Positions 5,046 to 27,513 of a DNA stretch of 31,991 nt are shown here, one piece after another. Made by a program: the position numbers and the translations under genes. The stretch comes from a virus, in the IMG/VR virus record IMGVR_UViG_3300034352_000094, positions 1 to 31,991 of that record. The stretch is one strand, 5' to 3'. The notes beneath the pieces were generated by a model. The model saw nothing but the letters and a program-made list of their open reading frames with translations. It searched no databases and was not told where the DNA came from. Each line of letters opens with the position of its first letter. Within the stretch, counting starts at the first letter, position 1.

Positions 5046-5073
5046 CATAGTAATATTTAATTAACATACTATG
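5046..5073 (+). repeat. Inverted repeat in the 5025-5091 gap
   Basis: CATAGTA (5046-5052) and TACTATG (5067-5073) form a perfect 7-bp inverted repeat around a 14-base AT-only-but-one loop, in the 67-base gap before the 5092 gene. It has no T-tract, so it is not a standard terminator. It could be an mRNA processing or stability element or an operator; chance cannot be ruled out in AT-rich DNA. Confidence 0.3.
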
Positions 5074-5091
5074 CAGTATAGGAGATAAATT

Positions 5092-5778: not shown

Positions 5779-5793
5779 TTTAGGGGAATCCAC

Positions 5794-7639: not shown

Positions 7640-10600
7640 ATGGGAAACGACGAGAGTTTAGCAGAAGCTAAAAAAGCATTTAGAAATGGTAACGGTAATG
7701 GTGCTGATAATGAAATAACCCTTACTAAAAATCTCCCTCCTCTTACTGAAGAGGAAAAGAGTAAAGCCTTATTACAAGAAACATTAAGACGACGACAAGA
7801 AGAACACCCCGCCAAGTATGATGAATTTGGTAACTTACCAAGCCCTCCTAATAATTTTGTTCAGAAAGCACGACAAGTTCAAGCAGAAGTTAATGAACAA
7901 AAAGCTAAAATCCTTAAAGACGTCCTTCCCCAGAAAGAGAATACTGCTGCACAAATAAGAGAACAAAAGCAAAGAGCTATTAATATAGAACTTCCAGAGA
8001 TGTCTATGGTAGATCATCCGCTTGAAGAGGACCTATCTGGAGGTGGTTTCACAAGTCTACAAAGTGGTACAGGACCGGGGCAAATTCCAACAGAAAGAGA
8101 TGTAATTCATGGGAAGATTGAAGCTGCCGCTAATAAGCATGAACTTCCTCCAAAACTTTCTCTTATGCTGGCTCAACAAGAATCAGGTTTGGATAACGCA
8201 GCTGTTTCACAAACAGGAGTTCAAGGCCTATTTCAAGTAACTGCAGAAACTGGGGATGAAATGTTTAAAGGTACCGGGGTTAAGTTTGATGTTAATAACA
8301 TGGATCATCAAATAGAAGCCGGTAGTAAATATCTAGCTAAGCATATTAAAGACTGGAAAGCTAAAGGCTTTAGTGAACAGCAGGCTCAGCATTTAGCTAC
8401 TATGTCTTACAATACTGGGTTTGGGCGTGTGTCCCAAGCTATTAAAGCTACAAAAAAAGCTAACCCTAGTATGCAAGAAATAGAAGATGCTGGCCTTATT
8501 TTATTTCCAGAATCTGAAATAAAAGATGGAAAAGAATATCCATTTTCTAAAGACGAATATAAATCAAAATCTCATAAAGCTAGAAGCTTTAGAGAAGGAG
8601 TGGGTCACTGGAAAAAGATACACTATGATGATAGTGGTAATCTTATAGATTATCGTAAAGTAGATGAAACTCCTTTTGAACCTGGAAAGGTACTCCCATC
8701 TCCTACAACTCCTGTAGAAAGAATAGATACCGGTGAAAGACCTGAAACAATTCCCGTTGAGGTAAGAGAACAAGAAGAAGTTATTATTCCTAGTGAACTG
8801 TCTCCAGTACCTATGGTAAAAGTGGCAGATCCACGATTCCCAGGTGCAAACGTACCTCATGTACCTTCTCCTATAACTAATCCAGACATTCCACCGCCTA
8901 CAAAGCAGGTAAAAACTAAACCTATTTCTCAAATAACAGCTAGTCCTAAAGAGACTACTGATTTATTAACTAAGAAAACTACCAAAGCTCCTACTATTAC
9001 TGAGGAAGAATCTTTAGAAGAAAGCCCTACTGAAATACCTCCCACAGAAGAGGAAGTCAATAAACCAGGAGATATTGCTAAAAAGGTTGTAGAAAGTAAA
9101 GACCGCGATTTAGAGTTTTTTACTGAACAAGAACAAACTGCTTTTAAAACAGGTGAAAAAGCTGGAGAAAGCTTAGCAAGTATAAATATAAAAAAACAAT
9201 GGAATCAACTATTAGATACTTTCGTGGAAACTCCGGATATATTTCAGCAAGGAGTAAAGAATAGCGTTGATAGTCTAAAAGGTTTAGCAGAACGCTATAT
9301 GGAATATAAAGGTATAACAGGTGTATCTGGAAATCAATTAGTAGATTATGTTACAAAAAATTCAGCAGAATTTGTTGATTGGGTTAAACAAACAGAGCGT
9401 TTAAAACAAAAAGAAATAGAAAGAAGAACAGGTAAAGCGTATGTACAAGAATTCGTAGGTAGTAAACAAGCAAGAGACAAAGAACTAAAAGCTAAACACA
9501 AGAAGGACGACATAGCAAAAGTTGGTGGCTTAGGTAATTGGAATGCAATTCAAAAAGATGATCAAGTAGGAATACGAGCAGGATTAGATGAATTAGCGGA
9601 TAAAATGGACGGAGCCAATCAAACTGGAAACGATGCTCTAGTAAAAACACTTAAAGAACAATACGTTAAATTACACAAGTTTAAAAAAGAAAAGATTGTA
9701 CAGAAAGCCACGGAAACAACCTACACTCCAATTAAAAAACCTAGCATTTTAGATAAATATCCTCTGCATATTTCTTCTGATATGGATGTCAGTATAGGTC
9801 AAGGACTGTCGTCTGCTTGGGATATGATGCCATCTGCTGAAATACAAGCAGCAGGAGAAGGAATGCTAAAGATGGAGTCTTTAGAAAATAAGACTCCTGT
9901 TGTATCAACATATGGCAAAAACGTATTTGAACATGAAGACGGTAGATGGTCAGTCCAGACTCATGACGGCAGAGTACTCAATTTCCACAGTGAAATTGAA
10001 GCTAAATCATACGGTGATTACAACGCAGCAAATGCCAAAGGAATGCATGAAGGTGCCCCACCAGCTGGTAGTCCTCATGAGTATTTTAATAGGGTTATGG
10101 AAGGCCTAGCAATGCCTGCTGAGTTATTAGGCAGTGCAATGGTTGGAAAAACTACTTTAATACAAAAAACCGCAGAATGGAATCATATAGAAGTAAAAAA
10201 CGGACGTGCTCCTATTACTGATGAGATATTAGAAAAATACAAGAATAAAGAATTATCAATAACCGACCCTTTTCACAAAACCCTTGTTCGATTAGATAAA
10301 GAAGCTAAGGAAAATAGAGCAGAATATGCTGCTATTGGTAGATTTGCTGATAGTTATAGAAAGTATTTTCCTGTAAATAGAAAACATATGGCAGGAGCTG
10401 CTACTGCTTTTAAACTTATTCATCAATCAAAAAAGCACGGTAAATTAGATTCTCTTTTACATGTATATAATAATATAGGCACTTTTATGGAACAGGGGTT
10501 TGATAGTGTCGGATTTACGTTAGCACTGACACTAGGTAACGTACCTGTACAATTAGGTATGCTTGCTAGTTTAGCTAAAGGTCAAGCTACTAAAATGATT

Positions 10601-13600
10601 GAGGACTATGTTAAAGAGCATGGAGAAGAACCTTCTTTAGAAATAATAGAACGTATAAATATAGCCGCCGCTTTCAGTCTTGCAGCTGAAAAAATTAGTA
10701 TGGGATACATGAAGGGCGTAGTTAAGGGTTTACCTATAGTAGGTGATCAAGCTAAGTGGGTTGGTAAAGTAGGAGCAGCTATAAATAGATCTATCGATAG
10801 TAATATTGCTACTAGTCTTCTTAAAAGAATAGCAGTTAAACCCGCTATATCAATGTTTGGGGAGGGCGTACAGGAACGATTTAGTCAAGAAGCTGAACAC
10901 TATGGAATGAAAGGAGAATGGTTACCGCCCGAAGAAGGAACCCTCGCTATTGTTTCAGGAATGACTGCAGCACCTGGAGTTGGTGGTACTTTATTAACGC
11001 TACAAATAGGCGGTAAAATTGCTAAAACAATAGCAAGTCCTAGTAAATTAAAACTACAAAGGGAACGATTTCAATACGAGTTAAATAGACTCACTATACA
11101 GGAAGGACAGATTAATAAGCATGATCGTATATCTAATCTTGATGAACAGATAGAAAATCTAGAACAAGAAATAAATCCATACACAGGTCCAGAAGGCTCG
11201 GGTGTTGAAACAGCTAATGATCGTTTTATGTTTCATTACGATCAAGCACGTATGAATGATATTCCTCATCGTGAGGCAATAGCAGATGCTAAAAGAAGAA
11301 CAAGTGAAGAGGTCGTACAACTTAAACAAGAAAGAGCTGAATTAATCAAAGATACTCCTGTTATAAGACTTAGAGATACAGTATTAGCCGAGAGTATTAG
11401 AGAACAAATAGCAGAAATAGACAAACTAATTACAAAAGGGGATAACGCCCAATCTATCGCAACCCTTGAAAATACTAAAAAAGATCTTGAAGCAAAATTA
11501 GATGCCCCAGCTAATAAAGAACAACTTGCATTCCATAAAGAAGCAGTATTAAACGATAAAAAATTAGCAGAAAAGCTTCTTATAGCTACTGATCCAAAAG
11601 CATCAAAAGAAGATAAAGAGGCAGCTAAAAAAGATCCGTTAGATGTTGGGGCAATTGCTGGTCTAAAACAGCAAGTATCTAACCTGGCTACAATGACTAG
11701 TGCCATCTTGGGCCCAGAAAAAGGAGACCCTGTTGCCTTAAAAGAAGGGGATACCTATAAACCTGAAAAAGGTAGTGGTTTAAAACTACGCCAACAAGAA
11801 GGACAGGCCAGTATTGTTGAACTTATACCAGAAAACCCAGAATGGCTTGATGAACAAGGAAGAAGAAAGACAGAAAGAGATTTTCCTGATAAAGCAGCTT
11901 ATCAAGAATTTCTTAATGAAACTAAAGAGTTTGATGCTAACCAGAAAAAAGGTAAAGAAAAGCTTGCTGAACTTCGTAAAGAGCAAACCAACCTAGACCC
12001 CGAACAAGTAACGGCATTTAGAGCATCTGAAATTTTAAAATTATTAGCTTCAGTATCTAAGAAAGATCTAAATGATGAAGAAAAGAAAGTTATTCGCGGA
12101 ATAATAAAAGAACTTGAAGAAACAGGAGTTTTAGGACCTGAGGCAGAAGAGGGTAAATCATTAGCTGATAAGTTATTTAGTGGGCCAGATCCATTTGGTG
12201 ACGCACAAAATGCTAGCCCAGAAGAACTACAAAGATTAATTGATGATCCTTTAGTTACTGATGCAACTAAAAAGCATTTAGTAGCAATACAAAAAGCTAA
12301 TAAAATTAAGAAGAGTTCTAGAAAGAATGTTCATGATAAAAATATTCAAGAAGTAGGTGAAGAGGTTGTTTCTGGAGAAGAAGGGGATTTTAAAGGTCTC
12401 CATACTTATCGAGATCACATAATAGCTTTATTTAAAAATCCAGATAAATTAGGAGCAAAAGCATTAGCTCGAAAAGTTCAAGTCCAAATGGAAGCAATGA
12501 ACACCCATGCGGCGAATCTTAATAAGAAACTCAGTGCATTTAAAGAAGCAGCTCAGCGTAATATAGATACTCCTGCTGGAGTAGATAAAGATGATAATCA
12601 GCTTCTTTGGACTGTAAGAGGTAATCGCGCTGTAGATGACACCGGTAGACTAACAGGCTCACGAGAAATGACCTACTCTGTCCAGACAATGACAGAGGCA
12701 GAGTACACACAGAAACGAGAAGTTGAAGGGAAATACCTCAATAGAATAGATGCTAATTCTTCTACTGCCACACCTAAGCAAAAGAACGGTTCAGCAAAAT
12801 TAATTAAAACTCTTAACGAGGAAGTAAAACTAGGAAAACTTGCAGTAGATGCTGTTAATACGTATGAAGGTACATCTATTGATAAACAACAAAAGCTTCG
12901 TACAGTTGGTGCCTCTAGTAACAAACTATTTCAAATTGAATTAAAGAAAATTAAATCACAAATAGAAGCACCTATAGAAGAAATTACTGATGAAGTTATA
13001 GAAGATATAGATGCTACAGATGAAACAAAAACTGAAGAAGGAAAGAAAGAACCTAAAGATAAGAAAGAAACTGCAGAGGAAGAAATAAAAAGACTTAAAT
13101 CAGAAGTTAAGGAGACGCCAGATGAAGCTAAAAGCGAAAGAATTGAACATCTTATCAACGAAATATTTCTTGAACAATCAGAAGAAACTAGATCCGATGA
13201 AGATGGAGCACCTCAAGGAGAAGATGACATATTTAATGAAGCTGCTGAATCTCCTGATGCAACTCCTGAACCTACTGAGCAGGCTGAGGGGGGAGAACGA
13301 GCAGTACCACCAGAGACAGGTGAAGGTGCTAAACCCACCGAAGAAGGGAAGATTGAATCTGTTAAAAAGGTATTTCAAGATTTCATAACAACTGCTACTA
13401 AGAAGTACTGGCCTGTTATAAAATCAGTTAGTGCCAAGAATTTAGATAAGATGTTAGGTTTGTTTAATGCGGTATTTTCAGATCTAGTTAAAATAGGATC
13501 AGATGATTTAAGCATAGCAGGTCTTCATACTTTAGCAGATGACGTATTTGTAAAAAATGATAAAGGGCTTATATCAACTATTCCACTAAGAAAAGCTCTT

Positions 13601-16600
13601 AGAGATTTAGGGATGTCTCCAGCAGGAGCGCATGCTTTAGCTGACAGATATCAAAAATTTAAAGCTAGATATGAAAATATTGTATGGAAGGGGAACATAA
13701 AAGGAAGAACATATAAGAAGGATAAAAAGGGAGAGCCAACTAATGAAATTAGATATAAAGGAACTATGGTGCAGTTCCTTGATTCAGAAGATGCGACTAC
13801 TTATGAAGTAGAAACAGTTACTGATGGTCAAGCTAAGCTTGAAGGTAAAACAGAACTAGTACCGGTAGAAGAACTATTTGATGTAAATAACTTCGCTATT
13901 AGAAATCCCCTCTCTATCCTATTACGTAAAGACGAGACAGATCCAAAAGATCAGATAGGCAAATTACCTGATCAAGTAATATTTGGAATGATGTTAAGCG
14001 CGATAAACTTTAGACAACATACCCTTAATAACGAAAGATTTTCTTCTGACTGGGAGAAGTCCTTATTTCTATACGGCGGCAAGGATACTGTTCTTAGTTC
14101 GACTGAAGAGGCACAATTAAAAGATCTTGGTTATGGTTATAACGATACTGCTGAAAGTATAGGACGAGATGTTGCATCCTTATTAAGGATGTCTGCTAAA
14201 AAGATAGCTAAAGACCACCCAACGATAACACAGCATGGAGCTGATTTATATTTTGATAATTTAATCCCAGCTCTAGGAATGATGGCTATAGAAATAGGCC
14301 AAGGAACAGATGCAAATTCCTTATTTACAATTGAAGAGAAGAAGTGGCAGTTTAAAGATGGGGATGACAACAAGGGTTATGTAGAAGGAAGAAATTTTAA
14401 TGATGCAGATCCAAATGATAAAGGCGCTGCACCTTATTACAGACACATTAAAGTACCAGAAGGAGATAAAGGAGTTCCTGTAAAACTGAAACAAGCATTA
14501 AGGGACTCATTAACTGAATTAGTTAAAGTTACAAAAACCCAAATGAATAATTATGGGTTTGAACCTCTTAGTGAACCTCCAGAAGTTTCAAATGATATTA
14601 AAGGAACTTTTGGGAATATCCCACGAAAAGTTAAAAACCTTCTTAAAAAACTCCAAAAACAAAAATGGAATACAGCTGAAACCCTAGATTCAGTAGTTGC
14701 TCTAGAAGGTCATAGAGATGTTTTAGAACAACTAATGGGGATAGTAGAACTTAAAGGGATAGATCGTCATAAATCTGAAAAAGACTCTCTTGAAGCTGCT
14801 AATAAAGATAAGATTACCGATTTAGAAGAAATTTTAGCAGCATACGATAAGGGCGGAGATAATAATTCATTAAAAGATTTCTACTATAAATATGAATTGC
14901 AAAATCAGCATCGTATTTTAATGCAGGGAAGAATTAACCCTCAGCAAAGTAAAGTTACTAGATTCCTACTACAATCTTGGGGAGCACAAACATACAACTC
15001 AGAAAATCTCTGGAAATTTAAATTAGCTGTAGCTCAGAATTTTGGTATTGGTGTAGATAAAGAGAATCTAGTATTTGCAGAGCTGGCATTTGATGACATT
15101 GTAGAAAATGAAAATGTCCAAAATGCAGTAAAAGCTTTATCAAATATTCAGAATAAAAAAGGAGATCAGAAAGAACTAGCTAAAAAATTAGCTGATGCAT
15201 TAGCAGCCATTAAACTTACAGACGATTATAAAGATAGTGATCTATCTCTGCTGAATGCTATTACTGCATTAACTAATTACATGCCTGATGGTACTCCACA
15301 AGCTGAATTTAAATCCGATGTAGTGTTTGAAGCAGATGGTATCTCCAATGGGTTTGCTATGAATGTTATGCAATTCCCTATGTTTGCCAATCTGGAAAAG
15401 ATACTTAATCAGATAGGCAACTACTTCGACGTTAGAACTCCCCACGATACAACTCAACCTGATGTTTATGTGACTTTAGGTGGTCATGTTAAAGATGGAG
15501 CAACCGCTAAGCAAAGTTATGAGTGGTATGCAAATAATTCCTGGAAAGACGACTTTAAACATGAAACATACGCTGAAACTGATTCTGGTGAGACAGGTAC
15601 AGATATTGTAATTCATCGAGGTACTAAAGCAGAACCTTTAACAGAACAGGATAAGACGGAAAATAGGATAGCAAAAAGCATTTTAATAGATAGATATAAA
15701 GCACGAGATGAAGCTCTAAATAATGTTTACTCAAATTTTGGAGATAAGAAACAACTACGTAAAGTCGTTAAATACCCATTCCTGATTTATATGTATGGTG
15801 GAGGTATTGATCGTATTTCCAAGGATGTTAGCAAAGACATTATTAAAAGTATTTATGAAACTGCCGGTACTATATTCAGAGAATATAAAGGGATGGAAAC
15901 CGGTGATCCTGAAGTTCTCAAAGCATTAAGTAATCATCCTTCCGGTCCTATTAAAACACAACAACAGTACCGAGATACCAAGATGAAAACATTCTTGGAT
16001 AGCTTAGAAGAACTTGGAGCGTTCAAGGGAGACAAACTTAGTAGAGAGCAATATGAAAAAGCGCTATTAGAAAAAGATGAGGAAACAGGCAAGTTAGTTG
16101 GTAAATCCCTGGAACTATTTTTTAATGACTCAGAACTAACTCAACAAGTTAGCAGGACGATTGCTCCTAGATTTGATTATGGGTTAGATAAAATGCTGGG
16201 AGAAACTAAGGGCCCAAGAGACGCCGTAGTTCAAATGGGAGAAATGCTTCATAACGTATTTATGTTGCATTACAAAAAAGCATACAACGAAGAACTCGAT
16301 AAAATAAACCAGGAGTATAAAGCATCCCTTAGTGAGGAAGATAAAGCTAACTTTACCCCATTAACAAAATTAACAAAGAAACAGATTACACATCTTATTA
16401 AAGATGTTAATGGAAAGTTAATACATGTATTCCCTCAATACGAAGGACCTCTATCTCAAATTCTAGAAAATAGTAAGGGAGAAGATTATATTGAAGGCGC
16501 TGTTGATTTAAGCGACATGGAGTTTGTCAGAAAGGACACTGATAAAGAAACTAAGGAGACATTTGATAGCGAAATATCTGAGATTTCATATGCCAAAGAT

Positions 16601-19600
16601 GGCAAGAAGAAAACTCGTGAGAGTTTTCCTAGCCAGTTAAAATTTATTGAACCTGGAGTTGCTGCACTAATCCGTCAGATCATTAATATGGATTCTGTAG
16701 TTCTTACTCAGACATTAAATGGAACAAATAGAAAGGGTGACCCAAGAATCACTGAAGGGTTTACTAATATAGAGTGGGCAGGAAATACCCAACTTATACC
16801 GCTTCATGATGCTTTCATGGGTAGTCCTGAACATATGTCTACCGTATCTGAAATATACGGAAAGATCTACTTAGAATACAGTCTCAAGCATAGCATTATA
16901 GAAAAAACTTTTAGTCAGTTAGAAAAAGTTATCGAACTAACTAAAAAGCTAGACAATGTAAATCTTGATGTTAAAGACTATCGTCCATTAATGGATGACC
17001 TAGAGCAACAGTACCAACGGAAGCAAATGGATAGAGGAGTAGATGATATTAAAAGCGTTGAAGAGATTATTAACGAATTTGAATCAATGCAAACCGCTGT
17101 TATTATAGCTCGAAAAGCATTAGCAAAAAGAATTAAAGATGAAGGCATGGTATCTCATCAAATGTACATGCCGAGAAAAGATGATTTGATTACTAAGGCA
17201 CGTAGTTTTTATGACTATGTAATGCAAACCCATGTAGAACCTTCTCTTAAGGACAGGAAAACAGCAGAACGTAGTGAACCAACTGTTAGATATGTAGATG
17301 AAGATATTATTTCAGCAGTTGATGGTAAACGTGTTGTAGCAGCACAAACAGATCATGAAAACAATCAAATACTTATTAATAAAGCCGAAGTTGCACGTAC
17401 GTTTAAAAAGAAAGCCTGGACTGTTGCAAAAATGAAAGGAGTTATTCCATATGCTGCAGATGCATTTAAAACTGTGGAAGAATGGGAAGTATTTCTAATA
17501 GCTCATGAGAGAGCTCACTTTACTAAGGCTAATCAAAGTCTTCCTAAAGGATCTATTAGGGAAAATAATGCTAATACGGAAGCATATAGAGCAGTCCAAC
17601 GACTAAGAGAAACTGAGGAAACTGATGAAGCAGAAGGAGAGCCTTTACCTGTTAATCCATATCAATTATTTAAAGACGCCAGTGGTAACTGGACGTTCAC
17701 TAATTTAGGTCAAACACTAGCCATTGATAAAATGAAAGAGTGGTGGAAAGGAAATTTAGGTAATCTTTTTGTATTACAAGGTAGAGGTGGCACAGGTAAG
17801 ACTACTATTGTTAATAAAGCTCTTGAAGAAATGGGAATACCTATAAGAAATGTTAAATTTGCTTTACCGACACATAAAGCTAAACAAGTAATTATGGGAG
17901 CTGCTGAAGATTACTCAGACGATCAATTCGATACACTTGCTAAATTATTAGGACAGAAACAATATTATGATTGGGACAAAAATGTTTTTGATTTCAAAAA
18001 AGACCAGAACAAATTTGACTTCTCAATGAAGAAATTAAAAAAAGACGGAATTGAGCTAATTGTTGTTGATGAAGCTTCTATGGTGTCAGAAAATTTTACA
18101 AAAGAACTTAATAATTTATACAAGGAACTGGGTATACGTGTACTTTTTATGGGCGATAATGTGCAGTTGCCTCCTATAGAACAACTACTAGGTCTTATAA
18201 AAGGAAGAATATCATTATCAACAGTATTTGATAATGTAATGGATTTTAATAAAAAAACTGATTTAGGAATTGATAAAGAAACTAGCTATGCTGAATTAAC
18301 TAAACGTATGCGTCAAGGTGAGGAGTCACCTATTTTAGGTATTACAGATATTATTGCTAATACTGCCATAGATGTTTTTAATCGAGCAGTTAGTGATGAT
18401 CAAGATACAAAAGACGAAGATCTTCAATATGATGGTACAAGTAAAAATATATTTTTTAGATTACCAGATATCAAAAAAAGCTCAGAAGTAGATGGTGTCC
18501 ATTATATGGATGGAGAGGGTACACATAATTTTGACAAAACATTAGAGAAGTTTGTTGATGAGTATAAAAAAGATCCTGCTCGTGTTAAATACATTCACTA
18601 CAATAATGAAGTAAATGAACGCACTGTTACATTACGAGCAAAAATTCGTGAATTACTTTTTCCTAATGAAAAAGATGCAGGTGATTTAGAAGCAAGACCT
18701 TTTATTAAAACTGACGAAGTAGCTGAACGTATTGTAGTCTCAGACGTCATAGGTGAACTTGATGAAGAAGGCAAGGTTAAACGGTCAGAGCATTTACATA
18801 ATGGCGATGAGGTTACCGTAGTTTCAGAATTAACTGATGCGTTAGTAGAATTTACGACTGAAAAGGATGGATTCAATCCAGAAAAGTTTTATGGAAGTAT
18901 TCCAGCAAGAATTTTACGAGTTGTAACAGATAAAGGTGTGGAACACTCGTTAGTTATGGAAGATAAAAGGAAAACTGAAGATAACGGAAAACCGATTACG
19001 ATTGACATACCTCTGTATACTAAGAATGAAAAAGGAAAATTTAAAGACTTTATTTATGATGTTGATGGAAAAATAAAAACTAGAAAAATAAGAAGTACAA
19101 GAACTATGGCAGTTATACATAGTAAGCAATCAATGAAGCAACGAGCATATACAAAGAAAAACGAGAAAAAAGAAGAGGTTTCTACATATGCACATAAAGT
19201 ACTTCAAGAAATATTTACATCAGAACCAGCTGCGGCTTATCTAATTAATTCACATAAAGCACAAGGCAGTACCTACCATACTGTATACGTAGACTATGAA
19301 AATATTATGGGTCCAAAAGGACCTCCAGATTGGTTAAGTAAATTAAGTGCACTATACGTAGCTACATCTCGTCCAACTACAAGACTCGTATTAGTAGGAG
19401 ATGGTCAGCTGGAACATGGTAATCCTAAAACAGCCGAACTAGACGCGAATATAAAAATAAGAGAGGATCTTGAAGGCGTAAGACCTACTAGTACTGAAAG
19501 TAAAGGCGAAACTAGATTTAGAAGTGTTAAACGATTTGGAAAAGCACTATGGGATAGAGCAGATGCTATTAAAGATGCAGCTACAATATTTCTTTTTGGT

Positions 19601-22600
19601 GATAATTTAGAAAAAAAGGGTACTGGTCCACAATCAGGACAAGCAATTATTAGAGGGTTAGCCAATGCTTTTGGTATCCCAACTAAGAAAAAGCCGTCCA
19701 TGACTAAAGACAGCTTTTTTACAGATAATGAGTTAGAAGACAACAAACGAGTTATCAATGATGCATTTTTAGCAATTCCAGAAGGTAGAGACATAATACT
19801 ATCTCAAGGTGGGTTAGGTACTGATCGAGCTAGATTAAAAAAAGAAGCACCTGAAACATGGGAGTACTTACAGGGCATTCTTGAGTATATGGAAGAACAT
19901 TTAGAACTGCCTCCGTATGTAGTATCAGAAACCGTTTCTGATGACACAAACAAACCATTTAACATCTGGTCAACTGATAAAAAGAGCGGAAAGCTTAGTA
20001 ATCTTGCCAACAGACCTTTTACATATATCTTACCAGATGACTTTCCTCAATTTGCCGGAGATCCGTATCAATCACTTAGGGGAGTATCCTTCGAATTTAC
20101 ATCAGTAGAGCATGCTTATCAAACTTTGAAATCCGGAGAATTTAATAAGACAATATATAATAATAAAGCATGGGGGGATAATAATAAGATTAAGAGTGGT
20201 AAAAAAGCAAGGACAGAGAATGATTGGAATATAAATCTGATGGGTAACTTAATGCGAGAGTCCTTAGCTACTAATTCACCAGAAGCTAAAGCAGCTCTTA
20301 AGTTATTAGAAGAATCGGTTGGTAGTCCTATTACTCATGTGGGTCCATATAAAACAGATTCTTGGACAATAGACTTTCCTCTCATACTGACTCAAATAAG
20401 AAAAGAACTTTTTATTGATAAAAAAGAAACGGGTCTGACAAGACCCCTTACAGACTTTAAACCAGGTGTAGTTCACGTCGTTGAGGATACTAATAACGCT
20501 AAAGAGTATTCTAGAAATAATTCTAAAACTTCAGTTTATGTAATGCGACCTAATGAGGGAGACAATATTCCTTATGTAAAAGTGAATCAAAATTTTGGTA
20601 ATCCTTGGTCATCTGGTGGATTCCAGGGATCTATTAAAGTTGATAGCGTAGAAACAGCTGTTAATAACTATGAAGCTTGGTTAAGAGGTGATGCGCATCA
20701 AGATATACTGCCTAATCGTAGAACTTTTATCCTTCAACGAATTAACGAAGGATTCTTTGATGATAAAGAATTAGTCTATTTTAGAAGTGGTACTAGTCAT
20801 GCAAAGGTATTAGAAAAACTTATAGCTGAAAGAAATGCTAAGCCTACAGGTAAAACTACTCCACCTAAAGGTGAAACTTTACAAACACGAATGACCGCTA
20901 TGATTGCTAAAGTAATCAGCGATAACGCAAAAAAATGGTTAAAAAAGGAACAGGTTAAAACAGCTGTAGCTACACAATTTATTGGTGATGGCTCTGTCGG
21001 TTCTTCCTCATACAGATATAAATCAATATATCAACGGGAAAATAAAGCTAATACAGGTATATATACTGCAAACGATATTATCTTTATAGCTTCTAATGGA
21101 CGACGAACTAAAAGAATTGATCCTGTCGTAGGTGGAAAATTACAAGGAGCCTACGAGAATGTCCAGAAAGCAATGGATGCAGGAGCTACTATTATTATGG
21201 ACACGAAGGCCCATTTAGATGCTCACAGCTATAATATTGGTGAAGCAGCTCTGGCTAAATATTTAGCTAATAACGGGTATGCTAGGGAAGGACAGTCAGG
21301 TATCTGGAAACCTGCTAAGCCTAAAGCTAAAGCTGCGGAAACAACAACATCTTCGTTTACTTATAGAAAAGCTAATGATAAGGATCCAGATATAAAAGTT
21401 AAAGAAGGAGATTTTGTATATGTTGTGCAGATGGACGAATTATCAGGCCAAAATGTTCCATTCCTAAATTCCTGGGTCATACCCGTTGAAGTGGTAGAGA
21501 TATACGTAGAAGGGTGGGTAAGAGTAAAGAACCCTGATGGGTCATTTAGTACAGCTGTAATAAATCAGGATGATAGCTATATACAGCTAAGAACAACAAG
21601 AAATATAGACAGGAAAGCTCCTCCTGGAACTGCTTGGAAATGGGGCGAGTTCATGAGACATCTAACAGAGAGTGAACGGATACGTGTTTTTAAGTTAGTG
21701 GATGATATTATGCTTCAGGAAGAGATCATGGATTATGTAAATAATCCGTCTAAACTTAGAAATGAATTAATAGAAGCAAAAAAAGCAAAAGAAGAAGAAG
21801 AATTTCCAGAAGGGTATGATCCAGAAAACCCAGGGGATTTTGGTATGATGGAAGATTTTGCAGAACCAGAGCCAGATATGGATGAAACTATTGAAACTTG
21901 GACTCGAGGACGAAAAGATCTATACGAAATACTTCTTGATATGGAAATTACCAATGAGGTAGGGGATCGATTAAAAACATTAGATGATCTACCTAAGAAC
22001 CCGACCGATAAATCTAAAGAGCTGGGTGATATTACAACGAATAATATAAAGAAATTATTTAACAAATTTAAAAAATTCTCCCATGGGCATTATTCTAATA
22101 AACAAGAGATGGACGACCACACCCAAACATTAGATTCAGTTCTTAATGTATTAAACGAAGGAATAGCAGCAGTAGGAGGGATTAAATTATCTACTCAACA
22201 TATTAATGGGATTACACAAGGGGAGTACGATATAGCTAGTAAGTCAATGAAGATGTTCCTAAGTAATAATCCTCCTTACTCTAATAATAGTCAGTCCCCA
22301 CAGGAAGTCTATGTACATGAATTACTCCATGCTACTACGGCCCTGGCAATAAGAGAGAACCCGTTAGTTGCTGAACGTATAGAACGGTTGTATGTCCAAA
22401 CTGAAGATGCTCTAAATAGCAAATGGGGAGAAGGTAAGGGATATAAGGTATTTTTAGCTAAAGGGGTTACGCCTTCCAAGAAAGATATAGATATGGCTCA
22501 ACGCCAATATAACTATGTATTTAAAGGTAAAGAGAAAGCCAAGCTTCATGAGTTCTTAGCTTACGCGGTAACTAATAAACAAATGATTGATTTCCTCAAG

Positions 22601-25519
22601 ACTCAGCCTAAACCTGTACGAGAAGGTACTCTAGGTAAATTATTAGATATGGTTAGCTTAATTATGAATGTTATTAAAGAAGCTTTCGGCGCACGAACTT
22701 ACCGAGATACTACTGGTAATGCATTCAATGACATGATAGCTGCTACAGAACAGTTAGTAGCTATTCAAGCTAAGCATCAAAGTCTCTATCAGAAGTACGC
22801 CAATAGAGCTTATGACGCTATGGATAAATCCGATGAATTTCTCAAACAGTTTGCAGAAGATATAGCTGTGAATGTTGCTGGTAATCCTGATGATGATAAG
22901 CGTTTTAAGGGTGCCAAAGGTGCATTGCGTAAAGGTACTCACATGATGACAGGTGGTCTTAATACCATTTTTGGAGAAAGCGAAGGATCAAGAAAAGCTA
23001 GACAACAAGTTGATCGAATCATGAGTAAAACTTTAAGGGGTATTGCCGGTGAAATTGGAGCAGGCACTCTTAATGAAGCCATGATTGAACAGCTATTGCA
23101 CGTTAAAGTTAATATTTCCAAAGCACGACAGCAAGCTGAGACGTTTACTATGAAATGGTTTAATGGGGACCCAGATGAAGGACTAAAAGGTATTTGGAAA
23201 TCTGTAAATCCTTTAGATAAACACTCTATGTCTGTTCAGACAAAAATAGCATTAACTGAAATAATGCTTAGAACTGATCTATCTGCTCTTCGTAATAAAG
23301 GTACTGAATTTGAATTAAGCCATAAAGAAATTATGGATTTAATTGGTAATGATACAAATACTAAAGCAGCTAGAAGAGTGAAACAAAATGCCATTGCTAG
23401 AAAATTACGATTACCTCATTCAAGTAAAGCATTAAGATACGCCAATGAATTAGGGCATCATATTGTTACAAATAAAACTCGGCTAAACCGGGCAAATATG
23501 AATGCTAAGTCAATTGCCTTACATCATTTAAAGAATCCTACAGATGAACAAATAGCATTACTAGATACGTATGCAACTTTATCTGCATTAGATCACACGG
23601 ATTCTACTCAGGATTCTTTAGTTAAAAATTTATCTAAAAAAGAATTTGCTAAAGATTCTACAGAGAATGGCATGACTGAATTAATAGATTATCATATCGA
23701 ATATAAAAAGAATTCAAAGAGAGATCTATTTAATGACAATGCTACCCAAATGGTTAAAGGATACATTATTGAACGAGTAGATAATTTTACTCATGTAAAA
23801 GTTGGTACTAAAGCTGATATAGCTAAAATGAAAAAAGAAGGGTATAGCGAACATTATGAGTTAACAAAAATAGATCCTAATCAAACTTATGATACTTTGT
23901 TTGTTACTCGTACTATTCCAGAGGTTACAGATGTATCGGGAGTTATGTCTACGACTAATCAACGAAATATGGGTACTACATTAACTGAAATATTAGTAAG
24001 GGACCCAGCATTTCATCACAAAAAAGGACCTAATAAAGACCAACCTAATTTCCATTTAATAAAAGTAAAAGTTAAAAAGTTTATAGCTGCACAAGAAAGA
24101 GCAGCTGAAAATCTAGACTGGGATGACTCGTTAAAACTTCGTCCTGTTTTTGATGAGAATAATAACATTACTGATTATCGTGTGTTGATGGACAATGAGT
24201 GGAAAAAAGAGCTTCTACAACCTGATCTAGAGTATGATCACGTATTTGCACATATGAGATCTGCAGCAATTGATCGTAAAGAAACGATTGAGAGTGATAA
24301 GAAAACCGTAGAGCTCTTAGTGTATGAGCAAATGGATATGATGGATTCTCACCCAGATATGAAATGGGTGGATATTATGGATCCTGCTTCGCCGTACATT
24401 GATAGATATAGAAAACTTCCTAGAGAAGTACGAGAGCTTATAAAAGAGTACGCACTAAATGGTAAATTCATGGTTAGAGAGGATGTTGTTGATAAGGTAT
24501 TTGGATATAAAGCATTTGATCTAACGCAGTTAAAAATACTGCAGTCAGGTGATCATCCTCTTGCTAAACGAATTGCCGGGGCAACTCATCATGCTATTAA
24601 GCAGACAGTTGGTTATGGTAAAAACAGAATAGTTATTGCTATGCCTCAGGTAGTAGTTGGAAATATGATGTCTAATATCTACCAATTACTAATGAGAAAA
24701 ATTCCAATAGACTTTATCTTTCATAAAATTTATGAAGGTATCTCTGAATATAATAAATATGATAAAGATACTAAGGAACGTACAAGATTAAACGCTAGAA
24801 TTAGAGCTAAAGGTTTGGATAATAAAACTAGTGATGAAGCTATTAAAGTAGCAAGACTTAATGATCGTATAGAGAATAATTTGATTCATAGAATGAGTGC
24901 GGCGGGATTAAACTCTCTTATTGTGGAAGACATTAATGATTCACAAACAGATGGTTATTTAAATAAATTAAAAAAGACTATTCCTGTCACTTTTCCAGGA
25001 GCTCAGAAATATATAGATAACATACCTCCTTTTATAGGAGATGTTGCGGCTTTATTATTTATGACTAAAAGCAGTAAACCATTCCAGATGTCTAGGCATG
25101 TAGTTCAACTGACTGACTTTTTAGGTAGGTATGTAATGATAGAGCATGCTACGAAAGTAAAAGGACAGAGTTTTAATTCAGCTATGCACGAAGCGCTTAA
25201 TGCATTTGTATTGTTTGATGAAGCACTAGTTCCGGCTTTAGAAGCAGTTGATGCTGTCGGAGCTACCTCATTCCTCTCGTATTATTTACGTAATTCTAGA
25301 GCTTCTAAACAACTGATTCAAACAAGTCCTACAGGAGTAGCAATGTCTGCTGCATTCCAGCATGCTACGGGGATACCTACATTAGGTAATGTTAATAGTT
25401 CATGGCTTGGTGGGAAGTTCTCTCCTAATTATTTACAAACAGATGATCTATTCGATGAAGCAAGTAATGTAACACTATATGACATTGTAATGAATGAGGG
25501 ACGTAATTTATTTGATTAA
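7640..25519 (+). CDS. Giant virion polyprotein: transglycosylase + single-subunit RNA polymerase + helicase + ADP-ribose-type domains
   Basis: One uninterrupted frame of 5959 codons; GAAGGAG 6 bases before the ATG at 7640 is a good ribosome binding site. Domains in order: lytic transglycosylase (about 153-279), hydrophobic Gly/Ala-rich stretch (946-1135), coiled coils (1135-1340), acidic linker (1790-1905), single-subunit RNA polymerase (about 1908-3130), HERAH zinc peptidase (3289-3293), SF1B helicase (3332-3945), DUF7831-like (3958-4085), NADAR (4104-4258), DUF4326 (4274-4405), GDGSxGSSS domain (4418-4556), SH3-like segment (about 4575-4660), HELLH zinc peptidase (4893-4897), long C-terminal region (5060-5959). 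It sits where N4 has gp50, the 3500-residue virion RNA polymerase, at the end of the late operon and convergent with the SSB side. Most likely packaged and ejected with DNA. The design fits the 'polyvalent protein' concept of Aravind and co-workers. Whether it is cleaved after translation is unknown. Confidence 0.93.
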   Translation: MGNDESLAEAKKAFRNGNGNGADNEITLTKNLPPLTEEEKSKALLQETLRRRQEEHPAKYDEFGNLPSPPNNFVQKARQVQAEVNEQKAKILKDVLPQKENTAAQIREQKQRAINIELPEMSMVDHPLEEDLSGGGFTSLQSGTGPGQIPTERDVIHGKIEAAANKHELPPKLSLMLAQQESGLDNAAVSQTGVQGLFQVTAETGDEMFKGTGVKFDVNNMDHQIEAGSKYLAKHIKDWKAKGFSEQQAQHLATMSYNTGFGRVSQAIKATKKANPSMQEIEDAGLILFPESEIKDGKEYPFSKDEYKSKSHKARSFREGVGHWKKIHYDDSGNLIDYRKVDETPFEPGKVLPSPTTPVERIDTGERPETIPVEVREQEEVIIPSELSPVPMVKVADPRFPGANVPHVPSPITNPDIPPPTKQVKTKPISQITASPKETTDLLTKKTTKAPTITEEESLEESPTEIPPTEEEVNKPGDIAKKVVESKDRDLEFFTEQEQTAFKTGEKAGESLASINIKKQWNQLLDTFVETPDIFQQGVKNSVDSLKGLAERYMEYKGITGVSGNQLVDYVTKNSAEFVDWVKQTERLKQKEIERRTGKAYVQEFVGSKQARDKELKAKHKKDDIAKVGGLGNWNAIQKDDQVGIRAGLDELADKMDGANQTGNDALVKTLKEQYVKLHKFKKEKIVQKATETTYTPIKKPSILDKYPLHISSDMDVSIGQGLSSAWDMMPSAEIQAAGEGMLKMESLENKTPVVSTYGKNVFEHEDGRWSVQTHDGRVLNFHSEIEAKSYGDYNAANAKGMHEGAPPAGSPHEYFNRVMEGLAMPAELLGSAMVGKTTLIQKTAEWNHIEVKNGRAPITDEILEKYKNKELSITDPFHKTLVRLDKEAKENRAEYAAIGRFADSYRKYFPVNRKHMAGAATAFKLIHQSKKHGKLDSLLHVYNNIGTFMEQGFDSVGFTLALTLGNVPVQLGMLASLAKGQATKMIEDYVKEHGEEPSLEIIERINIAAAFSLAAEKISMGYMKGVVKGLPIVGDQAKWVGKVGAAINRSIDSNIATSLLKRIAVKPAISMFGEGVQERFSQEAEHYGMKGEWLPPEEGTLAIVSGMTAAPGVGGTLLTLQIGGKIAKTIASPSKLKLQRERFQYELNRLTIQEGQINKHDRISNLDEQIENLEQEINPYTGPEGSGVETANDRFMFHYDQARMNDIPHREAIADAKRRTSEEVVQLKQERAELIKDTPVIRLRDTVLAESIREQIAEIDKLITKGDNAQSIATLENTKKDLEAKLDAPANKEQLAFHKEAVLNDKKLAEKLLIATDPKASKEDKEAAKKDPLDVGAIAGLKQQVSNLATMTSAILGPEKGDPVALKEGDTYKPEKGSGLKLRQQEGQASIVELIPENPEWLDEQGRRKTERDFPDKAAYQEFLNETKEFDANQKKGKEKLAELRKEQTNLDPEQVTAFRASEILKLLASVSKKDLNDEEKKVIRGIIKELEETGVLGPEAEEGKSLADKLFSGPDPFGDAQNASPEELQRLIDDPLVTDATKKHLVAIQKANKIKKSSRKNVHDKNIQEVGEEVVSGEEGDFKGLHTYRDHIIALFKNPDKLGAKALARKVQVQMEAMNTHAANLNKKLSAFKEAAQRNIDTPAGVDKDDNQLLWTVRGNRAVDDTGRLTGSREMTYSVQTMTEAEYTQKREVEGKYLNRIDANSSTATPKQKNGSAKLIKTLNEEVKLGKLAVDAVNTYEGTSIDKQQKLRTVGASSNKLFQIELKKIKSQIEAPIEEITDEVIEDIDATDETKTEEGKKEPKDKKETAEEEIKRLKSEVKETPDEAKSERIEHLINEIFLEQSEETRSDEDGAPQGEDDIFNEAAESPDATPEPTEQAEGGERAVPPETGEGAKPTEEGKIESVKKVFQDFITTATKKYWPVIKSVSAKNLDKMLGLFNAVFSDLVKIGSDDLSIAGLHTLADDVFVKNDKGLISTIPLRKALRDLGMSPAGAHALADRYQKFKARYENIVWKGNIKGRTYKKDKKGEPTNEIRYKGTMVQFLDSEDATTYEVETVTDGQAKLEGKTELVPVEELFDVNNFAIRNPLSILLRKDETDPKDQIGKLPDQVIFGMMLSAINFRQHTLNNERFSSDWEKSLFLYGGKDTVLSSTEEAQLKDLGYGYNDTAESIGRDVASLLRMSAKKIAKDHPTITQHGADLYFDNLIPALGMMAIEIGQGTDANSLFTIEEKKWQFKDGDDNKGYVEGRNFNDADPNDKGAAPYYRHIKVPEGDKGVPVKLKQALRDSLTELVKVTKTQMNNYGFEPLSEPPEVSNDIKGTFGNIPRKVKNLLKKLQKQKWNTAETLDSVVALEGHRDVLEQLMGIVELKGIDRHKSEKDSLEAANKDKITDLEEILAAYDKGGDNNSLKDFYYKYELQNQHRILMQGRINPQQSKVTRFLLQSWGAQTYNSENLWKFKLAVAQNFGIGVDKENLVFAELAFDDIVENENVQNAVKALSNIQNKKGDQKELAKKLADALAAIKLTDDYKDSDLSLLNAITALTNYMPDGTPQAEFKSDVVFEADGISNGFAMNVMQFPMFANLEKILNQIGNYFDVRTPHDTTQPDVYVTLGGHVKDGATAKQSYEWYANNSWKDDFKHETYAETDSGETGTDIVIHRGTKAEPLTEQDKTENRIAKSILIDRYKARDEALNNVYSNFGDKKQLRKVVKYPFLIYMYGGGIDRISKDVSKDIIKSIYETAGTIFREYKGMETGDPEVLKALSNHPSGPIKTQQQYRDTKMKTFLDSLEELGAFKGDKLSREQYEKALLEKDEETGKLVGKSLELFFNDSELTQQVSRTIAPRFDYGLDKMLGETKGPRDAVVQMGEMLHNVFMLHYKKAYNEELDKINQEYKASLSEEDKANFTPLTKLTKKQITHLIKDVNGKLIHVFPQYEGPLSQILENSKGEDYIEGAVDLSDMEFVRKDTDKETKETFDSEISEISYAKDGKKKTRESFPSQLKFIEPGVAALIRQIINMDSVVLTQTLNGTNRKGDPRITEGFTNIEWAGNTQLIPLHDAFMGSPEHMSTVSEIYGKIYLEYSLKHSIIEKTFSQLEKVIELTKKLDNVNLDVKDYRPLMDDLEQQYQRKQMDRGVDDIKSVEEIINEFESMQTAVIIARKALAKRIKDEGMVSHQMYMPRKDDLITKARSFYDYVMQTHVEPSLKDRKTAERSEPTVRYVDEDIISAVDGKRVVAAQTDHENNQILINKAEVARTFKKKAWTVAKMKGVIPYAADAFKTVEEWEVFLIAHERAHFTKANQSLPKGSIRENNANTEAYRAVQRLRETEETDEAEGEPLPVNPYQLFKDASGNWTFTNLGQTLAIDKMKEWWKGNLGNLFVLQGRGGTGKTTIVNKALEEMGIPIRNVKFALPTHKAKQVIMGAAEDYSDDQFDTLAKLLGQKQYYDWDKNVFDFKKDQNKFDFSMKKLKKDGIELIVVDEASMVSENFTKELNNLYKELGIRVLFMGDNVQLPPIEQLLGLIKGRISLSTVFDNVMDFNKKTDLGIDKETSYAELTKRMRQGEESPILGITDIIANTAIDVFNRAVSDDQDTKDEDLQYDGTSKNIFFRLPDIKKSSEVDGVHYMDGEGTHNFDKTLEKFVDEYKKDPARVKYIHYNNEVNERTVTLRAKIRELLFPNEKDAGDLEARPFIKTDEVAERIVVSDVIGELDEEGKVKRSEHLHNGDEVTVVSELTDALVEFTTEKDGFNPEKFYGSIPARILRVVTDKGVEHSLVMEDKRKTEDNGKPITIDIPLYTKNEKGKFKDFIYDVDGKIKTRKIRSTRTMAVIHSKQSMKQRAYTKKNEKKEEVSTYAHKVLQEIFTSEPAAAYLINSHKAQGSTYHTVYVDYENIMGPKGPPDWLSKLSALYVATSRPTTRLVLVGDGQLEHGNPKTAELDANIKIREDLEGVRPTSTESKGETRFRSVKRFGKALWDRADAIKDAATIFLFGDNLEKKGTGPQSGQAIIRGLANAFGIPTKKKPSMTKDSFFTDNELEDNKRVINDAFLAIPEGRDIILSQGGLGTDRARLKKEAPETWEYLQGILEYMEEHLELPPYVVSETVSDDTNKPFNIWSTDKKSGKLSNLANRPFTYILPDDFPQFAGDPYQSLRGVSFEFTSVEHAYQTLKSGEFNKTIYNNKAWGDNNKIKSGKKARTENDWNINLMGNLMRESLATNSPEAKAALKLLEESVGSPITHVGPYKTDSWTIDFPLILTQIRKELFIDKKETGLTRPLTDFKPGVVHVVEDTNNAKEYSRNNSKTSVYVMRPNEGDNIPYVKVNQNFGNPWSSGGFQGSIKVDSVETAVNNYEAWLRGDAHQDILPNRRTFILQRINEGFFDDKELVYFRSGTSHAKVLEKLIAERNAKPTGKTTPPKGETLQTRMTAMIAKVISDNAKKWLKKEQVKTAVATQFIGDGSVGSSSYRYKSIYQRENKANTGIYTANDIIFIASNGRRTKRIDPVVGGKLQGAYENVQKAMDAGATIIMDTKAHLDAHSYNIGEAALAKYLANNGYAREGQSGIWKPAKPKAKAAETTTSSFTYRKANDKDPDIKVKEGDFVYVVQMDELSGQNVPFLNSWVIPVEVVEIYVEGWVRVKNPDGSFSTAVINQDDSYIQLRTTRNIDRKAPPGTAWKWGEFMRHLTESERIRVFKLVDDIMLQEEIMDYVNNPSKLRNELIEAKKAKEEEEFPEGYDPENPGDFGMMEDFAEPEPDMDETIETWTRGRKDLYEILLDMEITNEVGDRLKTLDDLPKNPTDKSKELGDITTNNIKKLFNKFKKFSHGHYSNKQEMDDHTQTLDSVLNVLNEGIAAVGGIKLSTQHINGITQGEYDIASKSMKMFLSNNPPYSNNSQSPQEVYVHELLHATTALAIRENPLVAERIERLYVQTEDALNSKWGEGKGYKVFLAKGVTPSKKDIDMAQRQYNYVFKGKEKAKLHEFLAYAVTNKQMIDFLKTQPKPVREGTLGKLLDMVSLIMNVIKEAFGARTYRDTTGNAFNDMIAATEQLVAIQAKHQSLYQKYANRAYDAMDKSDEFLKQFAEDIAVNVAGNPDDDKRFKGAKGALRKGTHMMTGGLNTIFGESEGSRKARQQVDRIMSKTLRGIAGEIGAGTLNEAMIEQLLHVKVNISKARQQAETFTMKWFNGDPDEGLKGIWKSVNPLDKHSMSVQTKIALTEIMLRTDLSALRNKGTEFELSHKEIMDLIGNDTNTKAARRVKQNAIARKLRLPHSSKALRYANELGHHIVTNKTRLNRANMNAKSIALHHLKNPTDEQIALLDTYATLSALDHTDSTQDSLVKNLSKKEFAKDSTENGMTELIDYHIEYKKNSKRDLFNDNATQMVKGYIIERVDNFTHVKVGTKADIAKMKKEGYSEHYELTKIDPNQTYDTLFVTRTIPEVTDVSGVMSTTNQRNMGTTLTEILVRDPAFHHKKGPNKDQPNFHLIKVKVKKFIAAQERAAENLDWDDSLKLRPVFDENNNITDYRVLMDNEWKKELLQPDLEYDHVFAHMRSAAIDRKETIESDKKTVELLVYEQMDMMDSHPDMKWVDIMDPASPYIDRYRKLPREVRELIKEYALNGKFMVREDVVDKVFGYKAFDLTQLKILQSGDHPLAKRIAGATHHAIKQTVGYGKNRIVIAMPQVVVGNMMSNIYQLLMRKIPIDFIFHKIYEGISEYNKYDKDTKERTRLNARIRAKGLDNKTSDEAIKVARLNDRIENNLIHRMSAAGLNSLIVEDINDSQTDGYLNKLKKTIPVTFPGAQKYIDNIPPFIGDVAALLFMTKSSKPFQMSRHVVQLTDFLGRYVMIEHATKVKGQSFNSAMHEALNAFVLFDEALVPALEAVDAVGATSFLSYYLRNSRASKQLIQTSPTGVAMSAAFQHATGIPTLGNVNSSWLGGKFSPNYLQTDDLFDEASNVTLYDIVMNEGRNLFD
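8096..8476 (+). other. Domain: SLT-type lytic transglycosylase (giant protein, residues 153-279)
   Basis: The motif LAQQESGLDNAAVS followed by GVQGLFQVTAETG is the soluble lytic transglycosylase signature; the catalytic glutamate is E181, and the later MSYNTGFGRVSQAI matches the conserved YN.G segment near the end of the fold. This activity would cut peptidoglycan locally during DNA entry. In T7 the same domain opens gp16, the largest ejected protein, which supports an ejected role for the whole chain. Confidence 0.88.
10475..11044 (+). other. Domain: hydrophobic Gly/Ala-rich membrane-type stretch (residues 946-1135)
   Basis: Repeated hydrophobic segments (FTLALTLGNVPVQLGMLASL, later LAIVSGMTAAPGVGGTLLTL) surround a short conserved-looking GEGVQERFSQEAE. 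This layout, a Gly/Ala membrane-type region with an EGVQE..Q.. motif after a transglycosylase, is what I recall from the large internal virion proteins of podoviruses. A role in crossing the inner membrane is inference. Confidence 0.5.
13361..17029 (+). other. Domain: single-subunit (T7/N4-type) DNA-dependent RNA polymerase (residues about 1908-3130)
   Basis: Four catalytic signatures appear in the correct order. T/DxxGR: LMQGRINPQQSKVTRFLL (R2431), close to T7 DWRGRVY...NPQG..MTKGLL. Motif A: VVFEADGISNGFAM (D2566), as in T7 AFDGSCSGIQ (D537). Motif B: R2707-xxx-K2711-x7-Y2719-G2720 in RKVVKYPFLIYMYGG, exactly the RxxxKxxxxxxxYG spacing of T7 R627/K631/Y639. Motif C: LIPLHDAFMGSPE (H3056, D3057), as in T7 LIHDSFGTIP (H811, D812). 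The A-to-C distance (491 residues) is longer than in T7 (275), so the fingers carry insertions. N-terminal and C-terminal borders are estimates. In N4 this enzyme transcribes the early genes right after ejection. Confidence 0.87.
17180..17620 (+). other. Domain: zinc metallopeptidase, HERAH motif (residues about 3181-3327)
   Basis: FLIAHERAHF gives an HExxH zinc-binding helix (H3289, E3290, H3293), and E3314 in NANTEAYRAV is placed as the usual third ligand 21 residues further on. Upstream strands (NNQILINKAEV) resemble the edge strand of zincin folds. Substrate unknown; self-cleavage between polymerase and helicase or attack on a host protein are both possible. Confidence 0.65.
17633..19474 (+). 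other. Domain: SF1B helicase, RecD/Dda-like (residues about 3332-3945)
   Basis: Walker A is LQGRGGTGKTT (K3387); Walker B is IVVDEASM (D3477, E3478); motif III is FMGDNVQLPPI; the C-terminal motifs are LINSHKAQGSTY and ALYVATSRP (R3911 as arginine finger). Order and wording fit 5'-3' SF1B helicases of the RecD2/Dda/Pif1 group. Roughly 100 residues between motifs III and IV are expanded and charged. It could unwind DNA during entry, help the polymerase, or act against host nucleases. Confidence 0.85.
19511..19894 (+). other. Domain: DUF7831-like (FGDNL..NAFGIPTK) (residues 3958-4085)
   Basis: IFLFGDNLEKKGTGPQSG, then LANAFGIPTKKKP, IPEGRDIILSQGGLGTDRARL and APETWEYL form the pattern of a phage domain of unknown function that is often a stand-alone small protein. 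The glycine-rich loops look like a nucleotide or ADP-ribose binding site. I recall its usual name as DUF7831 with only moderate certainty. Confidence 0.6.
19949..20413 (+). other. Domain: NADAR (YbiA-like ADP-ribose glycosidase) (residues 4104-4258)
   Basis: NIWSTDKKSGKLSNLANRPF, SVEHAYQTLKSGEF (E4157, H4158, Y4160), WNINLMGNLMRESLATN and ITHVGPYKTDSWTIDFPLIL are the hallmark segments of NADAR proteins. Known members remove ADP-ribose from guanine bases in DNA and act on N-glycosidic bonds of NAD-related metabolites. In a phage this would suit reversal of DarT-type toxin action or NAD-based defence; the target here is inferred. Confidence 0.82.
20459..20854 (+). other. Domain: DUF4326 (residues 4274-4405)
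   Basis: TSVYVMRPNEG, then VNQNFGNPWSSGGF (F4319 to W4323), an AVNNYEAWLRG helix and ELVYFRSGTSHAKVLEKLIA match the DUF4326 layout (V.R....GNP(F/W)....A...Y..WL....L.C......H..VL..L). Biochemical role unknown. The domain is common in phages and repeatedly found beside NADAR-type domains, as here. Confidence 0.65.
20891..21307 (+). other. Domain: unnamed GDGSxGSSS domain (residues about 4418-4556)
   Basis: VATQFIGDGSVGSSSYRY, then ANTGIYTANDIIFIASNGRR, VQKAMDAGATIIMDTKAH and HSYNIGEAALAKYLANNGY. I recall this pattern from proteins of large phages but know no assigned function. The alternating strands and glycine-rich first loop suggest a Rossmann-like or SLOG-like nucleotide-binding fold. Its place behind NADAR and DUF4326 suggests a shared substrate. 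Confidence 0.5.
22037..22609 (+). other. Domain: second zinc metallopeptidase, HELLH motif (residues about 4800-4990)
   Basis: EVYVHELLHATTALAI contains HExxH (H4893, E4894, H4897). A later LHEFLAYAVTN gives a candidate third ligand at E4971. It is unlike the HERAH domain in surrounding sequence, so it is a second peptidase rather than a duplication. It separates the nucleotide-type domains from the C-terminal region. Substrate unknown. Confidence 0.65.
22817..25516 (+). other. Domain: C-terminal virion region (residues about 5060-5959)
   Basis: Mostly helical. A segment near residue 5660 (NRIVIAMPQVVVGNMMSNIY) resembles a pattern I recall from the C-terminal parts of large phage virion proteins, followed by hydrophobic helices (FIGDVAALLFMTKSS and LVPALEAVDAVGATSFLSYY). 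No catalytic motif found. In N4 the region of gp50 outside the polymerase core is needed for packaging; a packaging or membrane role here is inference. Confidence 0.4.
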
Positions 25520-27210: not shown

Positions 27211-27250
27211 AAATTATCTCCTTTAGTTGAGTGTTAAAATTTACTCTAAT

Positions 27251-27505: not shown

Positions 27506-27513
27506 AACCCTCC

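Follow-up and report, generated by a model that had tools for sequence, protein, structure and literature searches.

A single protein of 5959 residues encoded by an uncultivated virus (IMG/VR record IMGVR_UViG_3300034352_000094) is, judged from its sequence, a virion RNA polymerase (vRNAP) of the phage N4 type, and this polymerase has probably been enlarged into a delivered multi-enzyme chain, whose packaging, injection, enzyme activities and purpose we infer. The stretch of DNA analysed, referred to here as the window, is 31,991 nucleotides long and makes up the entire record, a linear metagenome fragment, so that the rest of the genome lies outside view. Positions 7640-25519 of the plus strand form one open reading frame (ORF), which in the ORF scan of the window starts with ATG and contains no internal stop; a good ribosome-binding site, AGAAGGAG, is located immediately 5' of the ATG. 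The unbroken frame of 17,880 bases and 5959 residues given in the original prediction is thereby confirmed. An open frame of such length would arise by chance, at the base composition of the window, with a probability of about 10^-203, and the GC content is uniform all along it (33-39%), insert included. The features of the window are as follows.

3..7575, plus strand: N4-type late genes, encoding the major capsid protein and gp55-, gp54- and gp53-like proteins, with two genes at the gp52 and gp51 positions
7640..25519, plus strand: single ORF, predicted N4-type vRNAP with a large insert (ORF call, phrog_2206)
8117..8464, plus strand: SLT transglycosylase domain, residues 160-275 (PF01464, 1.2e-17)
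10340..11239, plus strand: N-terminal region with weakly hydrophobic helices, residues 901-1200 (hydropathy; conserved in relatives)
13352..16939, plus strand: single-subunit RNA polymerase core, residues ~1905-3100 (phrog_2206 and catalytic-residue alignment)
17177..17632, plus strand: HExxH domain 'HERAH', residues ~3180-3331, motif at 3289 (alignment A9)
17633..19444, plus strand: predicted SF1B helicase, residues 3332-3935 (AAA_30, phrog_325 and motifs)
19544..19873, plus strand: DUF7831/phrog_2072, residues 3969-4078 (PF25176, 1.7e-28)
19937..20455, plus strand: NADAR domain of the phage gp30.3 kind, residues 4100-4272 (LSNL at 4119, SVEHAYQ at 4155, H4233)
20465..20854, plus strand: DUF4326, residues 4276-4405 (FGNPW at 4319; alignment A4 and BFVD)
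20897..21319, plus strand: domain X, residues 4420-4560 (matches in phages and relatives)
22007..22789, plus strand: C1 domain with HELLH at 4893 (equivalent to N4 C1, HELVH at 2228)
22790..25516, plus strand: C2 helical C-terminal domain (phrog_2206, 4.5e-114; as in the N4 vRNAP)
25521..30702, minus strand: replication genes for a RuvC-like resolvase, SSB, a Sak4-like protein and a primase (convergent; as in N4 relatives)

The gene order of the window matches the N4 layout, as seen by comparison with N4 and with Vibrio phage phi50-12. The late genes were recognised by phrog_1357, 2130, 2050 and 2220, and the gp52 and gp51 (ejection-protein) genes by position only. The vRNAP gene closes the late operon after the major capsid protein gene and the genes for gp55 to gp51, and is convergent to the SSB and primase genes. 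A tRNA-Leu (CAA) gene is present at the end of the replication block (31455-31537, minus strand). By gene content and homology the encoding virus is an N4-type virus of bacteria. One 63 kb contig placed in a Hyphomicrobiales MAG (L061, JAJFHN010000039.1) encodes a 3583-aa N4-type vRNAP with an extra HExxH at residue 1024; it is a possible clue to an alphaproteobacterial host in the wider group, though the contig may be a mis-binned phage.

The likeness to gp50 of phage N4 (Schitoviridae) extends to the arrangement NTD-RNAP-C1(HExxH)-C2, to the five catalytic residues, and to the late-operon position by the capsid and ejection-protein genes. The N4 vRNAP profile phrog_2206 matches the protein over residues 1613-2596 (9e-40), 2409-3324 (2e-46) and 4822-5930 (4.5e-114), the first two being overlapping slices that together cover residues 1613-3324. 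Alignment of the window protein with N4 gp50, the vRNAPs of Alteromonas phage A5 and Vibrio phage phi50-12, and environmental relatives shows that the five catalytic residues of N4 (R1421, D1556, K1667, Y1675 and D1948) are all kept, as R2425, D2566, K2711, Y2719 and D3057, and they are conserved across the other aligned vRNAPs too. A search of PDB sequences with the polymerase profile A1 gave no match, so that the membership of the polymerase rests on phrog_2206 and the catalytic-residue alignment. The C-terminal profile A2 matches the solved N4 vRNAP chains 9pnr and 11fw, and the HExxH at 4893 is conserved in N4 and in every relative that reaches that far. N4 gp50 had been credited with only the polymerase core among the enzymes of this chain, which does not hold, since its C1 contains the same HExxH domain (HELVH at 2228; PMC12633501). 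With 5959 residues against 3500, the window protein is about 1.7 times as long as gp50, which has no transglycosylase, second HExxH domain, helicase, DUF7831, NADAR, DUF4326 or domain X (PMC12633501).

At the N-terminus, the SLT transglycosylase scores 64 bits against a PF01464 cut-off of 21.3 and keeps the catalytic Glu (E181) in a QQESG motif. The same domain is present in three related vRNAPs (L013, L015 and L048); L019 (3536-17662) is a helicase-bearing vRNAP without an N-terminal transglycosylase, so the wall-cutting module is optional too. In N4 gp50 the N-terminal region is predicted to span the membrane, and the region equivalent to it by position in the window protein has two weakly hydrophobic segments, 961-979 and 1101-1119, with a mean hydropathy of 1.3-1.5. 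Of the domain list drawn up at the outset, the transglycosylase, the two HExxH domains, the helicase and the N4 C-terminus are upheld, while the membrane-type segment proved to be only weakly hydrophobic.

One insert of about 1,600 residues is located between the polymerase and C1 (residues ~3180-4780). Three sister vRNAPs of 4417-4582 aa (L006, L008 and L010) are collinear with the window protein on both sides and are without residues ~3180-4780; in N4, where the polymerase ends at 2101 and C1 starts at 2124, a short linker occupies this site (PMC12633501). The insert comprises, in order, the HExxH domain, the helicase, DUF7831, NADAR, DUF4326 and domain X. The HExxH domain is a separate conserved domain that occurs in other giant phage proteins; in alignment A9 it shares 45% identity with L075 and 26% with L063, with KAWT..HExxH in common. 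It is absent from the helicase-bearing L013 and L019, being specific to the window within the helicase clade, and tblastn against isolate phages gave no match for it.

The helicase was matched by AAA_30 (1.1e-16) and, over residues 3224-3934, by the Dda-like profile phrog_325 (4e-42), and its own profile A3 matches RecD and other SF1 chains. Its motifs are intact and in order, namely GRGGTGKTT at 3381, DEASM at 3477, GDNVQLPP at 3505, HKAQGST at 3872 and YVATSRP at 3906, so that Walker A, the DEAx box, motif III (GDxxQLPP) and motif VI are all present. It is accordingly classed as an SF1B helicase of the Dda/RecD2 type, for which 5'-3' translocation and unwinding are predicted. Helicases that resemble the embedded one are also encoded separately in phages of the group (L002 12393-13472, L033 13135-14166 and L037 21922-23229, all on the minus strand); as these phages carry a stand-alone helicase, the embedded one would be dispensable for replication as such.

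A metagenomic contig of this kind may raise the suspicion of a chimera, in which the assembly would have fused an N4-type vRNAP with a helicase/NADAR gene from a different phage. The window is indeed a single linear contig, close-relative searches with the whole insert returned nothing, so that no close relative spans all of it, and three contigs (L002, L014 and L047) break in or near the insert region. Against this, the junctions are in frame, the base composition is uniform, and three vRNAPs from metagenomes other than that of the window, those of L013 (5001 aa), L019 (4709 aa) and L048 (4933 aa), carry the helicase in frame in the corresponding position, after polymerase motif C and before HELLH. 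The start of the helicase is also found at the end of L014 and its continuation in L047, both from one metagenome (a split contig). In a tree of the C-terminal domain, built without the helicase sequence, the helicase carriers and the window form one clade with 100/100 support, in which the window is sister to the others. Since the same helicase recurs in frame at the same site in three other metagenomes and its carriers form one clade, an assembly artefact was set aside; a chimera is largely refuted for the helicase part and, taken over the whole insert, is extremely improbable. On the simplest reading of these sequences, the helicase would have been gained once in the clade, and the HExxH domain, DUF7831, NADAR, DUF4326 and X later in the branch of the window. 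Among the matches listed for isolate phages, none of the helicase matches falls in a gene that carries a virion RNA polymerase annotation.

The remaining part of the insert is composed of domains of predicted ADP-ribose type and of domain X. For DUF7831, the best match of the AF2 model is human TARG1 with ADP-ribose (2l8r; Z 5.7 over 105 residues, the next at about 4), whereas a Foldseek search of the PDB with a DUF7831+NADAR model gave no significant match; DUF7831 is probably a macro-like, ADP-ribose-binding fold, the Z of 5.7 being middling. NADAR of the window alone has no match to PF08719 at E<1. Two of its aligned relatives exceed the PF08719 cut-off (L076, 1e-9; cr126_1, 2e-15), the profile A8 matches Escherichia coli YbiA (3.6e-13), and YbiA is again the top match for this part of the AF2 model (Z 7.6 over 136 residues), where model confidence is low. 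In alignment A8, H4233 is invariant and the LSN and SVEHAYQ positions are also kept; a His in the catalytic site, on the last strand, is a feature of the phage (gp30.3-type) NADARs, one of which hydrolyses ADP-ribosyl-guanine on DNA (PMC11125620). DUF4326 aligns with L014, L023 and L031 (alignment A4), and its PF14216 E-value is 0.11 for the window and 4.5e-4 for the aligned relative L048, which falls short of the curated cut-off; the matches of this region among BFVD structures are mostly DUF4326 proteins, the highest probability being 0.99. Both NADAR and DUF4326 are assigned with the help of relatives, since the window alone is missed by Pfam or sub-threshold. Domain X occurs elsewhere as a stand-alone phage protein of about 136 aa (Vibrio phages Kuja and SUMAE), and also in L049, L058 and L062; a DUF4326+X model gave no significant Foldseek match in the PDB. 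ADP-ribosyl cyclase and methyltransferase were considered for domain X and set aside, the VIA Z-scores (4.4 or less) being judged uninformative. Overall, the polymerase, helicase and NADAR folds were recovered by profile searches at the residues first proposed, NADAR by way of its relatives and folds.

Divergence of this order could be read as decay, that is, as a kit gained by recombination that now serves mostly as structure or spacer without activity. The sub-threshold Pfam scores of NADAR and DUF4326 when scanned alone, together with the several sister phages that do without the kit domains, would fit such degenerate passengers. The signature positions, however, are kept throughout: motifs I, II, III and VI in the helicase, LSN, SVEHAYQ and the His in NADAR, FGNPW in DUF4326, and FGDN and GLGT in DUF7831. 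The kit moreover recurs in a distant lineage (L049), and its reduction to spacer is very unlikely.

The relatives show where else these modules can be placed. L014 and L048 carry DUF4326 within the polymerase region, and L055 and L056 at a different internal site; it precedes the polymerase in L023, L031, L058 and L059, in the last two accompanied by X. The 4811-aa vRNAP of L062/L145 (L145 211-14643) has DUF7831, X and an AlkB-type 2OG-Fe(II) oxygenase ahead of the polymerase. A 90.8 kb contig (L049 2987-15882, also L146), N4-type and very distant in the tree, has RNAP-NADAR-X-DUF7831-HExxH-helicase as its middle gene order; its vRNAP is split in three genes, the N- and C-terminal parts being separate, each with its own ribosome-binding site. 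DUF7831 adjoins NADAR in many other giant phage proteins, commonly also on contigs in which the N4 C-terminal domain was not found. Three giant proteins of 3200-3500+ aa on such contigs (L147 5610-15701, L148 9565-19998 and L149 5383-15159) contain DUF7831 plus NADAR, a HERAH-type HExxH domain or a helicase. The module set is therefore reused among related phages and its order is not kept. One element of the original prediction fails here: the idea that the order follows the stages of infection is contradicted by the shuffled orders in relatives, with the several sites of DUF4326 and the arrangement in L049.

Such mobility of the parts also bears on the function of the chain, as the polymerase may be no more than a vehicle from which the HExxH domains free the helicase and the ADP-ribose enzymes, unlinked to transcription. 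The kit is flanked by two HExxH domains (3289 and 4893), its order is not conserved and its parts shift along the chain, the C-terminal domain and N-terminal part of L049 are encoded apart, each behind a ribosome-binding site of its own, and a peptidase domain has been proposed to release units of such proteins (Iyer et al. 2017, PMC5512222). The site of the helicase is nevertheless fixed directly behind the polymerase in five clade members, and the helicase follows the polymerase in L049 too, while the upstream HExxH domain is missing from the other helicase-bearing vRNAPs of the clade. In the model system, studies treat N4 gp50 as an intact chain and peptidase release is without support; no degradation was seen of recombinant gp50, whose C1 motif is the same (PMC12633501). 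A cargo polyprotein is for these reasons considered unlikely.

Many enzyme domains in one chain with predicted delivery at entry are likewise described for the polyvalent proteins of phages and conjugative elements (PMC5512222). N4 vRNAPs belong to the founding members of that class; nearly all are fused to a metallopeptidase, and some carry lysozyme/transglycosylase, ART or RNase domains (Iyer et al. 2017). The window protein has the features of this class, with unrelated early-infection enzyme domains and a metallopeptidase-type HExxH in one chain and a virion gene context. The proposed merger of the N4 polymerase with the polyvalent concept was thus partly anticipated and, with N4 vRNAPs already described in that source as polyvalent proteins, becomes an extension of a published concept; the part that was not found in the literature searched is the helicase and ADP-ribose kit. 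An N4-type vRNAP with a helicase or with a NADAR/macro/DUF4326 set is not mentioned in the passages of PMC5512222 covered here, literature searches found no N4-type vRNAP with a helicase or NADAR, and the main text of a survey of N4-like viruses in metagenomes (PMC10654107) lacks the word helicase. ADP-ribose domains of the same types are fused to one another in the phage SLOG/Macro/NADAR/DUF4326 proteins, among which SLOG-SF1 helicase fusions are known (PMC9503650), but those are mostly stand-alone proteins, whereas the set of the window sits in a virion polymerase. Giant proteins of crAss-like phages are parallels that differ in arrangement and are not classed as N4-type vRNAPs: cr118_1 QOR58373.1 (L011; 4946 aa) has the same Dda-like helicase type at its C-terminus, and cr126_1 QOR59539.1 (L045; 2402 aa) the same NADAR type at its N-terminus.

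On ejection, the domains of N4 gp50 are loosely linked, beads-on-a-string with a mobile CTD; its NTD anchors, it requires a single-stranded template, and its C-terminal half damps activity (PMC12633501). By analogy, each capsid would hold a few copies of the window protein, which would thread into the cell in the same beads-on-a-string manner before the DNA follows. Opening of the wall would fall to the transglycosylase, anchoring at the membrane to the N-terminal region and transcription of the early genes to the polymerase, with single-stranded hairpin promoters predicted as for N4-type vRNAPs. The tethered helicase would most likely serve to open the incoming DNA or to draw it in. As for NADAR, the macro-like domain and DUF4326, these enzymes may strip ADP-ribose from phage DNA or destroy ADP-ribose signals of host defence, acting before any phage gene is expressed. 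As the best explanation of the domains, a complete infection-start kit, the central idea of the original prediction, is retained, its virion location and injection being suggested by gene order and homology. This reading is supported by the polymerase residues and C1/C2 conserved with N4, by the late-operon position, by the same-site helicase fusions and by the recurrence of the insert content in the distant L049. A more specific version, possible and put forward tentatively, is a self-melting virion polymerase, in which the helicase, at the hinge from the polymerase to the autoinhibitory C-terminal half, would unwind or reel in the genome in place of the supercoiling-driven promoter opening of N4, while NADAR, the macro-like domain and DUF4326 would erase DarT-like ADP-ribose marks from the same DNA.

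How the N4 virion polymerase acts once ejected is a matter of continuing study, and each part of a 5,959-residue chain would need to pass a channel of about 35 angstrom. A helicase on a polymerase from a single-strand-dependent family makes promoter opening and genome pull-in directly testable. If the ADP-ribose erasers are indeed pre-packed, the first molecules to enter would bring counter-defence with them, ahead of all reading of phage genes. The N4 virion polymerase emerges as an open platform, into which entire modules are inserted and within which they are relocated among related phages, and a whole toolkit for the first minutes of infection is apparently delivered in one chain.
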